From NCBI GenBank assembly GCA_009995225.1, contig JAACPW010000008.1, forward strand, positions 84,921 to 148,920: a DNA stretch of 64,000 bases, in the 5' to 3' direction. The position numbers and the translations under genes were made by a program. Shown here piece after piece: positions 6,944 through 16,236 of this stretch. Positions within the stretch are counted from its first letter, which is position 1, and each line of letters starts with the position of its first letter. Source of the DNA: Sphingomonadales bacterium (GTDB lineage Bacteria; Pseudomonadota; Alphaproteobacteria; Sphingomonadales; Sphingomonadaceae). The notes below the pieces were generated by a model, which made no database searches, was not told where the DNA came from, and worked only from the letters and a program-made list of their open reading frames with translations.

Positions 6944-8329
6944 ATGAGGCAACTTGGGGCAAAGAGGATCGCTGACCTGCTGTGCGGGCGCGCTGGCTTG
7001 CGCTTGGCGGCCGTGCTTGCACTGGCCGCGCTCTACCCTGCGTCCAGCGCGATAGGTAATGCTACCTTCGAAGGCGTGGCCAGCTGCGCGGGATCGACCT
7101 GCCATGGCCGGGCCGAGGGCAATGGCGCAGTTGTCCGGCAGGACGAGATCGCCACCTGGCAGGAGCCTTCCTCCCCCGGCGGCGCCCATTCCCGCGCCTA
7201 TGCCGTGCTGGGCGGACGGCGCGGCCAGCAGATCGCCGCGAGCCTTGGCCTTGGCAATGCGCAGTCGGCCCCGGCCTGCCTCGGCTGCCATGCGACCAAT
7301 GCGCCCACGGGGCAGCGCGGGGCGAAGTTCACGCTGACTGACGGTGTGGGCTGCGAAAGCTGTCACGGCGCGTCGGGCGGCGGGTGGCTGGCCGAACATT
7401 ATGCGTTGCCCGCGACCCATGCCTCGAACATCGCGGCCGGGCTGACCCCGCTGGATAATCCCAAGGCGCGGGCGAACGTCTGCCTCGATTGCCATTATGG
7501 CTCGTCCAAGCCGGGGCAATTTGTCACCCATTCCATGATGGCGGCAGGCCATCCGCGGGTATCGTTCGAGCTTGACCTGTTCAGCGCGCTTCAGCAGCAC
7601 CACAATATCGACGGCGATTATACCGCGCGCAAGGGCGCGGCCAATTCGGTGCGGTTCTGGGCGGTGGGTCAGGCCGAGGCGGTGCGCCGGGCAACCAGCC
7701 TGTTTGCCCAGCCCAAATTCGCATACGCGGGCGCATTCCCGCAATTCTATTTCTACGATTGCCATTCGTGCCACCGGACCATCGCCGATGGGCCGCAGCG
7801 CAGGCTGACGCATGAAGGCAACCCGGGCCGCCCGATCCCCTTCGGCAATCCGCCGTTCAATGACGAGAACATCATCATGCTGTCCGCCGTGGCCGGCGCG
7901 CTGGTGCCGGGCGAGGCGGGGGCGTTCCAGACCGCCAGCCGTGACTTCCACAAGGCGATGGGTTCGGGGCCGGAGCAAACGCGCGCTGCCGCACAGGCGC
8001 TTTCGGCGCGGGCAGGCGCATTGTCGGATGCGCTTTCGGGCCGCACCTATGCCGGCGCCGACGCCTTCAAGGTGATCGCGATCATCGCGGGCGAAGCCAC
8101 CGCGCCGCGCTTCACCGACTATGCCGGATCGGTGCAGGCGGTGATGGCGGTGGACACGCTGCTCAACGCACTGGTGCGCGAAGGGCGGGTGACGCAGGGC
8201 GCAGCGACGGGCATTCGCGGCGATATCGCACGGGCTTACAAGGCGGTGGACGAACCCAATGCCTATCGCCCGGCCGATTTCCGTGTGGCGCTGAAAGCGG
8301 CGGCAGGCGCCATCGGCAGGCTGCAATAG
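6944..8329 (+). CDS. Multiheme cytochrome c (c554-like), 4 CXXCH + 1 CX4CH
   Basis: Signal peptide, CAGSTCH, CLGCH, CESCH, CLDCH, CHSCH. Confidence 0.85.
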   Translation: MRQLGAKRIADLLCGRAGLRLAAVLALAALYPASSAIGNATFEGVASCAGSTCHGRAEGNGAVVRQDEIATWQEPSSPGGAHSRAYAVLGGRRGQQIAASLGLGNAQSAPACLGCHATNAPTGQRGAKFTLTDGVGCESCHGASGGGWLAEHYALPATHASNIAAGLTPLDNPKARANVCLDCHYGSSKPGQFVTHSMMAAGHPRVSFELDLFSALQQHHNIDGDYTARKGAANSVRFWAVGQAEAVRRATSLFAQPKFAYAGAFPQFYFYDCHSCHRTIADGPQRRLTHEGNPGRPIPFGNPPFNDENIIMLSAVAGALVPGEAGAFQTASRDFHKAMGSGPEQTRAAAQALSARAGALSDALSGRTYAGADAFKVIAIIAGEATAPRFTDYAGSVQAVMAVDTLLNALVREGRVTQGAATGIRGDIARAYKAVDEPNAYRPADFRVALKAAAGAIGRLQ

Positions 8330-8331
8330 CG

Positions 8332-15100: not shown

Positions 15101-16236
15101 CCGCCTATGACGTGGCGAGCATCGCCAACAAGGGTACGTCCGAGCGCATCCTGAAGGGTCCGTTCTCGCCGCTTGGGCATGATACCAACGTCAGAACCAC
15201 CAATGCTACCTGCATGGCGCTGCCCACCAACCAGCCGATTGCGCCCACCCGCAGCACGCCGGATATGCGCACCATCAATCAGGAACAGGCATTCCTGCCG
15301 ATCTACAGCTATGCGGTGGTGACAGATGCAGTCGAAGGTCTGATCCTTGTCAACGTCAACACGCTGGCGGACGGCGAATTCCGCAACAACAAGCTGACCC
15401 GCAAGATCTTTGCGGGCGGCGCCGATGCCTGGAATCCCGATGGCGTACTGACGGGGGCGCGGCACGTCGTGCTGGCGGGCGAGATCGCCTACATCACCGC
15501 CGACAAGGGTCTGGTGGTGGCCGATCTGGCTGATCCCGGCGCGCCAAAGGTCGCGGCGGTGCAGCCCTTGCGCGATGCCCGCGCATCGGCGGTGCAGTTC
15601 CGTTACCTGTGGGTGACGGATGCCGAGGGGGTGAAGCTGTTCGATGTCACCAACCTGCGTGCGCCGGTGGCCTTGCCTGAAGGCACCGTGCCGCTCGCCA
15701 ATGCGCAGCGGATGTATATCGCGCGGACCTATGCCTATGTCGCGGCCAAGGGGGATGGGCTGGTGATCCTCGATGTGAAGAACCCGCGCCGCCCCCGCGT
15801 CGCCCAGAAGGTGACTCTGGATGGCACGCTGAACGATGCGGAAGACGTGATCGTCGGCACCACCAACGCCTCGCTGTTCGCCTATGTGGCGGACGGGCGC
15901 AACGGGATGAAGGTGCTGCAATTGACCAGCCCGGACAGCCAGCGCAATTTCTATGGGTTCAGCCCTGCGCCGGTGCCGGAGATGATCGCCTGGGCGCGGA
16001 CGCCATCGCCGGCAATCGCGCTGTCCAAGGGCCTCGACCGTGACCGCGCGGTGGACGAGACCGGCGGTCAGATGGCGGTGTTCGGTCGGCTCGGATCGCG
16101 GCCCTTTACAAGGCCCGAAATGGAGCGTCTGTTCATGACCCGCAGCGGTGTGCCGTGGAAAGTCTCGGACGAGATCGACATGAACCGCTGGGTCGGCATC
16201 GCGCCGCAAGGGCCGCTGCGGGCCGCGCGGCGCTAA
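12139..16236 (+). CDS. Decaheme cytochrome c with C-terminal LVIVD-repeat beta-propeller-like domain
   Basis: Ten CXXCH motifs (CLTCH, CTDCH, CGSCH, CASCH, CMNCH, CADCH, CKDCH, CFTCH, CGGCH, CTDCH); C-terminal repeats AYITADKGLVVADLADPGAPK, AYVAAKGDGLVILDVKNPRRPR. Confidence 0.88.
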   Translation: MLKLGQSLTRQIALLAAALVLAVGLFAGVPMAADKEKPVKRDYTAVFAPPAPQNQSVAEMEAKSAGCLTCHIKTDAPTMHVSPAVRLGCTDCHGGNPSVQGNSDLPHNHPDYVGARDTAHVLPKYPNSWHFPSSANPKRSYALLNTESPEFVKFINPSDYRVAREACGSCHIGAIEAAERSIMASGAMLWGGASYNNGILPFKNYLLGEAYTRDGLPAKITSPGAGPGGVLSEDQVARGVLAEMYPLPTWQVIPPGDVFRVFERGGRTINSQFPEIGLPNPSGAIQRLEEPGRPDLKQSNRGPGTGLRVAIPALNIHKTRLNDPFTWFMGTNDQPGDYRHSGCASCHVVYANDREPRHSLTYAQYGRDGQTITVDPTIAGKIEHAAGYDEKMHGAVKQPGYDDHADHKDDGALTTPDGKVKEKGHPLSHVFTRAIPTAQCMNCHMHQPNIFLNSFLGYTMWDYESDAPSMWPKQQKYPTAEEVRAINERNPEAAAARGNWGDLDFLRNVYDLNPTLKDTQFADYHGHGWNFRAIFKRDREGNLLDADGAIVDNDDPEKWRKEGEGKFVPAGTNPGKAVHMMDIHAEIGMQCADCHFEQDSHGNGLIYGEVANAIEITCKDCHGTPDAYPTLRTSGPAAPPEGHNLALLRNPDGQRRFEWIEGEDGRRKLIQRSIVDPKLEWEMSLVKDSVDPATPTFNAKAARAKLVSRYGAETGNFEFGTGIGIDDRAHRDPEIACFTCHLSWTTSCGGCHLPIEANWKTKSHKYEGGETRNFATYNPQVARDEMFQLGKHQTTKGNQVAPVRSSSALVLSSTNINRERIYVQQPPISSIGFSSQAFAPHFPHTVRKTETKTCTDCHLSAKDDNNAIIAQLFLLGTNYVNFVGLNAWTGLEGGFQATRVTEYDEPQAVIGSYLHRYAYPDYWGLHVDQNGRELKNWVRGKTFDKNLSGETQPFEEFVNIHEGTSGRVGCLQLRGEYMFVAGGKGGFTAYDVASIANKGTSERILKGPFSPLGHDTNVRTTNATCMALPTNQPIAPTRSTPDMRTINQEQAFLPIYSYAVVTDAVEGLILVNVNTLADGEFRNNKLTRKIFAGGADAWNPDGVLTGARHVVLAGEIAYITADKGLVVADLADPGAPKVAAVQPLRDARASAVQFRYLWVTDAEGVKLFDVTNLRAPVALPEGTVPLANAQRMYIARTYAYVAAKGDGLVILDVKNPRRPRVAQKVTLDGTLNDAEDVIVGTTNASLFAYVADGRNGMKVLQLTSPDSQRNFYGFSPAPVPEMIAWARTPSPAIALSKGLDRDRAVDETGGQMAVFGRLGSRPFTRPEMERLFMTRSGVPWKVSDEIDMNRWVGIAPQGPLRAARR

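Follow-up and report, generated by a model that had tools for sequence, protein, structure and literature searches.

We analysed a 64,000-nucleotide stretch of contig JAACPW010000008.1 from a Sphingomonadales bacterium (hereafter the window), in which four consecutive plus-strand genes encode two multiheme cytochromes, a lipoprotein and a beta-barrel. A first reading of this DNA, referred to here as the original prediction, had described them as a pentaheme, heme-binding-type lipoprotein, barrel and decaheme cassette with gaps of +2, +1 and -1 nt, and this description holds: the four reading frames (6944-8329, 8332-10284, 10286-12139 and 12139-16236) are open, the gaps are as given, and the start codon of the decaheme gene lies inside the stop codon of the barrel gene (TGATG). 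The first gene codes for a pentaheme c-type cytochrome (PENTA, 6944-8329) with a signal peptide and similarity to cytochrome c554 (PF13435, 4.5e-12), whose heme motifs consist of four CXXCH sequences and one CX4CH (CAGSTCH), the latter being kept in 77 of 78 homologues, with the remaining one gapped there. It is followed by a HbpS/GlcG-like lipoprotein (HBPS, 8332-10284), which matches PF03928 in three stretches (6.3e-20), carries a lipobox (LASC|G) that is found in 46 of 65 homologues, and keeps three His residues. The third gene has a GTG start and specifies a predicted outer-membrane beta-barrel (BARREL, 10286-12139) of 18 strands, with a Pro-rich periplasmic N-terminus, a conserved 72-residue loop (residues 443-514) and no family match in Pfam. 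The last product, a decaheme cytochrome (DECA, 12139-16236), has a plain signal peptide, ten CXXCH motifs and a C-terminal LVIVD beta-propeller (PF08309, 9e-12), which the original prediction had missed.

The cassette proteins share 50-80% identity across the Alphaproteobacteria, and in related loci DECA follows BARREL directly in 110 of 114 barrel calls, at a median distance of -1 nt; the cassette is therefore not a chance arrangement. HBPS, BARREL and DECA are conserved as a closely spaced unit. In two close relatives (L044 and L075), DECA is called with only seven CXXCH motifs and the gap behind BARREL is longer, and in L048 and L113 additional genes between HBPS and BARREL break the tight spacing. 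Sequence searches of the PDB with the decaheme and with the barrel profile returned nothing relevant. Tellurite or selenite reduction, considered for its similarity to ExtM, was dropped as a function, the score being 56 bits against a cut-off of 800.

The cassette is only half of a system, the other half of which is a second operon (16240-22346), also overlooked in the original prediction, that lies on the minus strand four bases downstream of DECA and converges with the cassette. Nearest to DECA is the gene for a metallophosphoesterase that resembles cAMP phosphodiesterases (PDE, 16240-17124; PF00149), with matches to SpdA (2.4e-37) and CpdA (3e-20) that are both under the curated cut-offs, and this gene adjoins that of the next protein in 67 loci. 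The latter (FHA-decaheme, 17121-18920) combines an FHA-like domain, a transmembrane (TM) helix and a periplasmic part in which the number of CXXCH motifs, ten, equals that of the other invariant His residues. It is followed by an inner-membrane diheme b-type protein (IMP, 18931-19812) of five TM helices with WX3HX13H motifs on TM3 and TM5, which account for four of its five conserved His residues; TM4 carries TGIYG in the window copy and SGXXG in most homologues. Further similarities of the IMP are partial (b561) or weak (Ferric_reduct, 0.019). Directly upstream of the IMP gene lies that of a flavoprotein (FADcnmp, 19809-22346) with FAD/NAD(P) Rossmann domains, two cyclic-nucleotide-binding (cNMP) domains and a 4Fe-4S ferredoxin domain (PF13247, 9.5e-11). 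In all 55 sequences compared, both cNMP pockets retain the Glu and Arg residues that bind the sugar phosphate; the Rossmann region holds no CXXC pair, so that the protein probably follows ferredoxin/NADP-reductase-like rather than thioredoxin-reductase chemistry.

PENTA, BARREL, DECA and the FHA-decaheme share one distribution across the 151 genomes surveyed in this family: each occurs in the same 53, which represent 38 of 96 genera. The IMP is strongly matched in 52 of the 53, and the one that lacks such a match is a 67%-complete assembly; two further genomes give weak IMP matches only, near 7e-6. Species with and without the system occur side by side in at least 12 genera, the window's own genus included (G043 positive, G123 negative), and in these the four proteins switch jointly. 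The two halves are separated in 27 of the 53 positive genomes, 13 times by more than 40 kb on one contig and 14 times on different contigs, some of them in fragmented assemblies. In several other alphaproteobacterial families, the genes form a single operon in the order FADcnmp-IMP-FHAcyt-(c0)-HBPS-BARREL-DECA. Here, c0 is a secreted protein of about 140 aa without a Pfam match, encoded between the FHA-decaheme and HBPS in non-sphingomonad families (L034-L042, e.g., L036:13914-14366, minus strand) and missing in the window's system.

The original prediction had placed the cassette within porin-cytochrome logic in an aerobic alphaproteobacterium, which the cluster fits, and had remarked that its parts look unlike MtrA and MtrB. 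The latter point is borne out by both homology and fold. MtrB_PioB (PF11854) has no match in this genome, nor among 34 homologous barrels up to an E-value of 10, and for the DmsE/MtrA-type decaheme model TIGR03508 the best score was 17.7 bits, for PENTA, against a cut-off of 192.2, with DECA not listed. The structure prediction that had been called for, an AlphaFold2 model of BARREL based on 34 sequences (pLDDT 71, pTM 0.72), contains 18 strands, joined by short turns on the periplasmic side and by longer loops on the outside. When compared with the PDB using Foldseek, AlgE came first (TM-score ~0.60-0.69 on target length), followed by MOMP and OprD-type channels, and MtrB was absent among the 50 matches listed. 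The barrels of MtrB, PioB and MtoB have 26 strands, and Cyc2-type porin-cytochromes have ~16-17 (PMC10654088), thus 18 strands rule out an MtrB-like sheath, though not every kind of conduit. On these grounds, membership of the MtrCAB/PioAB/MtoAB group was rejected. The longest loop of BARREL, at residues 443-514, is also among its best-conserved regions, with a mean of 0.83 against 0.72 in the strands.

He et al. (2017) predicted two porin-cytochrome types, PCC3 and PCC4, which are found in iron oxidisers and for which they proposed an inward electron flow, to the quinone pool (PMC5566968). The IMP of both types has five TM helices, with SGXXG on TM4 and WX3HX13H on TM3 and TM5; PCC4 combines 4-, 10- and 5-heme cytochromes with a porin, and PCC3, the holders of which include a Mn(II)-oxidising Erythrobacter sp., has porins that are mostly very large, and cytochromes with a median of 34 and 21 hemes, one per 22-39 residues (PMC5566968). 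The window IMP and its family carry this five-helix signature with both WX3HX13H motifs, and the trait of PCC4 subgroup II, a PF13247 iron-sulfur redox protein encoded upstream of the IMP, is present in the flavoprotein. Relatives of the inner half were found by a class-wide profile search with the IMP, and then through gene neighbourhoods. Two such loci (L206 and L209) hold genes for a 4-heme cytochrome, a cNMP-FeS protein, an IMP, 10-heme and 5-heme cytochromes and a porin, a series that in L207 starts with the cNMP-FeS gene; a flavin/2Fe-2S reductase is encoded in addition. Because this composition matches, the three loci, which were compared by gene content, probably represent PCC4 of He et al. 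Their similarity to the window system covers the IMP (1e-13), the cNMP-FeS part (7e-35, 30% over 424 aa) and, at a weaker level, the cytochromes with ten and four hemes. The outer halves gave a different result, since hhalign returned a probability of 0.1% for BARREL against the porins of these clusters, the PCC4 identity of which follows from cluster composition, and 10.6% for DECA against the PCC4-type 5-heme protein (567-591 aa), which is absent from the window cluster. Instead of cytochromes with 4, 5 and 10 CXXCH motifs, as in PCC4, there are 4 (plus one CX4CH), 10 and 10. In one locus (L200), the inner half is of the window type, with a flavoprotein at 46% identity, an IMP and an FHA-decaheme, and is joined to a PCC4-type 5-heme protein and porin, which amounts to an exchange of outer modules. 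Judged by its sequences, the system is a variant of the predicted PCC4 type, with a homologous inner half and a different outer half. The fully independent type envisaged in the original prediction is therefore not what the sequences show, because the second operon shares its ancestry with the PCC4 inner half.

In total, the system holds about 25 c hemes. The ten invariant His residues of the FHA-decaheme would provide ten bis-His hemes; DECA has 16 conserved His residues in addition to its ten motifs, and PENTA at least seven in addition to its five. Since these suffice for full bis-His ligation in all cytochromes, no free catalytic heme is indicated. The number of residues per heme is 92 in PENTA, 136 in DECA and 60 in the FHA-decaheme.

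We give a probability of about one half to the reading that the cassette and the convergent operon constitute one cell-envelope electron-transfer system, a PCC4 variant that carries electrons from NAD(P)H to the outer membrane. NAD(P)H would reduce the FAD of the cytosolic flavoprotein, the 4Fe-4S clusters of which would pass electrons to the two b hemes of the five-TM IMP. From there, they may move to the FHA-anchored periplasmic decaheme, acting as a wire, and, perhaps through PENTA, to an outer-membrane module of HBPS, the 18-stranded BARREL and the DECA propeller, which would deliver them to an acceptor located either at the outer membrane or outside it. The outward direction is suggested by the NAD(P)H-type domain of the flavoprotein. 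A cyclic nucleotide may control electron input at this protein, as the two intact pockets, the phosphodiesterase in the operon and a CHASE2 cyclase upstream in some species suggest. A conduit through the outer membrane is a plausible working idea. The further-reaching version, a cyclic-nucleotide-gated, NAD(P)H-driven conduit across both membranes, with a new outer-membrane solution that is interchangeable with the outer module of PCC4 and standard in many aerobic heterotrophic sphingomonads, is tentative and, to our judgement, rather unlikely.

Several observations weigh against the favoured reading. The barrel is AlgE-like and narrower than the 26-stranded MtrB and PioB (PMC10654088), a lipobox is found in only one of 103 DECA homologues, and the model of the DECA heme domain (residues 34-975, 48 sequences) was too poor to be used (pLDDT 45, pTM 0.36). 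In Shewanella, surface cytochromes of the MtrC/OmcA type need a type II secretion system (T2SS), the secretin of which, GspD, has no match over the cut-off in this genome. FADcnmp and HBPS were traced through gene neighbourhoods, and the CHASE2 cyclase is an inconstant neighbour. In the FHA-like domain, G31, R32 and mostly H49 are kept, and the canonical phosphate-binding Ser is Glu in 47 of 84 members; control by phosphorylation through this domain is therefore doubtful, and phosphothreonine control is not claimed. The literature yielded no experimental test of this system or its kind, and nothing specific on these components in sphingomonads. A T2SS is ruled out as a required export route, since this genome holds the system without GspD over the cut-off. 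In L038, L039, L041 and L042, GspE- and prepilin-peptidase (PilD)-like genes adjoin the pentaheme gene, apart from the rest.

The same barrel and signal-peptide data could indicate a reductase that works in the periplasm and has an import channel of its own: a soluble compound would enter through BARREL and be reduced by the cytochromes, none of which would leave the periplasm, with the DECA propeller as the terminal enzyme. The nearest folds, AlgE, the OprD family and MOMP, fit this, and touch in part on the outcome that the original prediction had named as speaking against it, an ordinary porin; Alginate_exp (PF13372) weakly matches two of 34 barrel homologues (best 2.1e-4) and not the window BARREL itself, and both the plain signal peptide of DECA and the lack of a T2SS secretin over the cut-off agree with it. 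However, the conserved loop would be odd for a solute channel and rather suggests a fixed interface or plug, the capacity for full bis-His ligation does not point to a catalytic heme, and HBPS, BARREL and DECA are held in tight spacing, so that we regard this explanation as possible but not the likely one. Flow in the opposite direction, in which oxidation of a donor outside the cell or at the outer membrane, like Fe(II) or Mn(II), would feed electrons through the cytochromes and the diheme b protein into the quinone pool, would agree with the IMP signature and cluster logic that the system shares with PCC3 and PCC4 of iron oxidisers, and with the Mn(II)-oxidising Erythrobacter sp. among the PCC3 holders (PMC5566968). 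We consider it improbable, as the fused FAD/NAD(P) domain and the 4Fe-4S chain favour NAD(P)H as the cytosolic partner over quinone alone, and the hosts named in the barrel scan described below are mostly heterotrophic genera. Reductive iron or heme acquisition, with HBPS capturing iron or heme, a FRE-like IMP supplying electrons and BARREL admitting the metal, is in line with the HbpS-like family of HBPS and the weak Ferric_reduct similarity, but around 25 c hemes would be a costly way to gain iron, the cluster has no TonB-type receptor and HBPS keeps only three His residues, which makes this quite improbable. Even less credible is a true MtrCAB/PioAB-type conduit, in which BARREL would enclose a decaheme as MtrB does MtrA: the tight coupling of the barrel gene to adjoining multiheme cytochrome genes is what one would expect, yet the 18 strands, the unmatched PF11854, and a DECA with a propeller and 136 residues per heme, unlike the slim MtrA, contradict it.

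The host is an ordinary aerobic marine or freshwater bacterium, and the system is widely conserved. A scan of named genomes with the barrel alignment gave at least 563 confirmed stretches, and the best 80 of these, from which taxa were taken, belong to Sphingomonadales or to unclassified proteobacterial or alphaproteobacterial bins; they include Erythrobacter, Porphyrobacter, Qipengyuania, Sphingopyxis, Sphingobium, Novosphingobium, Sphingomonas and others, with the window's nearest relatives in Erythrobacter/Porphyrobacter. Sampling across the class gave matches in 15 of 246 genomes, and one match falls in another class of the same phylum. Large Sphingobium plasmids also hold copies, annotated as 'hypothetical' or 'multiheme c-type cytochrome', and a scan of viral contigs for the barrel gave zero matches. 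As to the surroundings, a CcmH/CycH-type TPR protein for cytochrome c biogenesis (22510-23406, plus strand; PF23914, 1.3e-13) is encoded as the divergent neighbour of the flavoprotein gene in many genomes and is a probable accessory of the system. The CHASE2 adenylate/guanylate cyclase (3937-5994, plus strand), a possible source of the cyclic nucleotide, is encoded upstream only in Erythrobacter and in some members of Sphingobium. Before the cytochrome cluster in Erythrobacter (window 1-6727 and upstream; L168, L169) lie genes for a ShlB/FhaC-like protein and a TpsA-like exoprotein ending in MBG_2 domains (two-partner secretion), along with a CHAT-domain protein, the CHASE2 cyclase and an exported protein, and a Sphingobium plasmid (L150) has a comparable ShlB/TpsA/CHASE2 set upstream. 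About 6 kb from the system, the minus strand of the window (28689-36335) carries genes for low-oxygen respiration, a cbb3 oxidase set (COX1, FixP, FixG) and a copper-type P-ATPase.

If the proposal is true, extracellular or outer-membrane electron transfer would be both common and regulated in aerobic members of the Alphaproteobacteria, among them Erythrobacter, Sphingopyxis and Sphingobium, and a cyclic nucleotide would control electron input directly, beyond transcription alone. The sphingomonads that hold the system are not known for extracellular electron transfer. The module swap, in which one inner half is combined with two unrelated outer halves, amounts to an experiment done by nature on the cooperation of barrels with cytochromes, and it opens the PCC4 prediction to tests in genera with cultivated type strains.

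Compared with known systems, the window shares with MtrCAB, PioAB and MtoAB that a barrel gene adjoins multiheme cytochrome genes, and differs in the absence of MtrB_PioB homology and of an MtrA-type decaheme over the cut-off, and in the strand number (18 versus 26). AlgE/OprD-class channels resemble BARREL in predicted fold and in their 18 strands, but the identity is 10-12%, there are no alginate genes nearby, cytochromes are consistently adjacent, and BARREL has the conserved 72-residue loop and the Pro-rich N-terminus. The likeness to PCC3 consists of the IMP signature, the combination of a porin with multiheme cytochromes and the one Erythrobacter sp. listed, whereas the 5, 10 and 10 hemes of the window proteins are spaced at 92, 136 and 60 residues per heme, compared to 22-39 in PCC3. 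The resemblance to PCC4 extends to the IMP signature, a redox protein with cNMP and 4Fe-4S domains encoded directly upstream, a 10-heme cytochrome and one with four CXXCH motifs, and a porin in the cluster. It ends at the outer membrane, where HBPS, the 18-stranded barrel and the decaheme-LVIVD protein stand in the place of a 5-heme cytochrome and a porin of 465-520 aa; moreover, the FAD/NAD(P) domain is fused to the cNMP-FeS protein, whereas PCC4-type clusters have a separate flavin/2Fe-2S reductase gene, and the periplasmic decaheme of the window bears an FHA-like domain.

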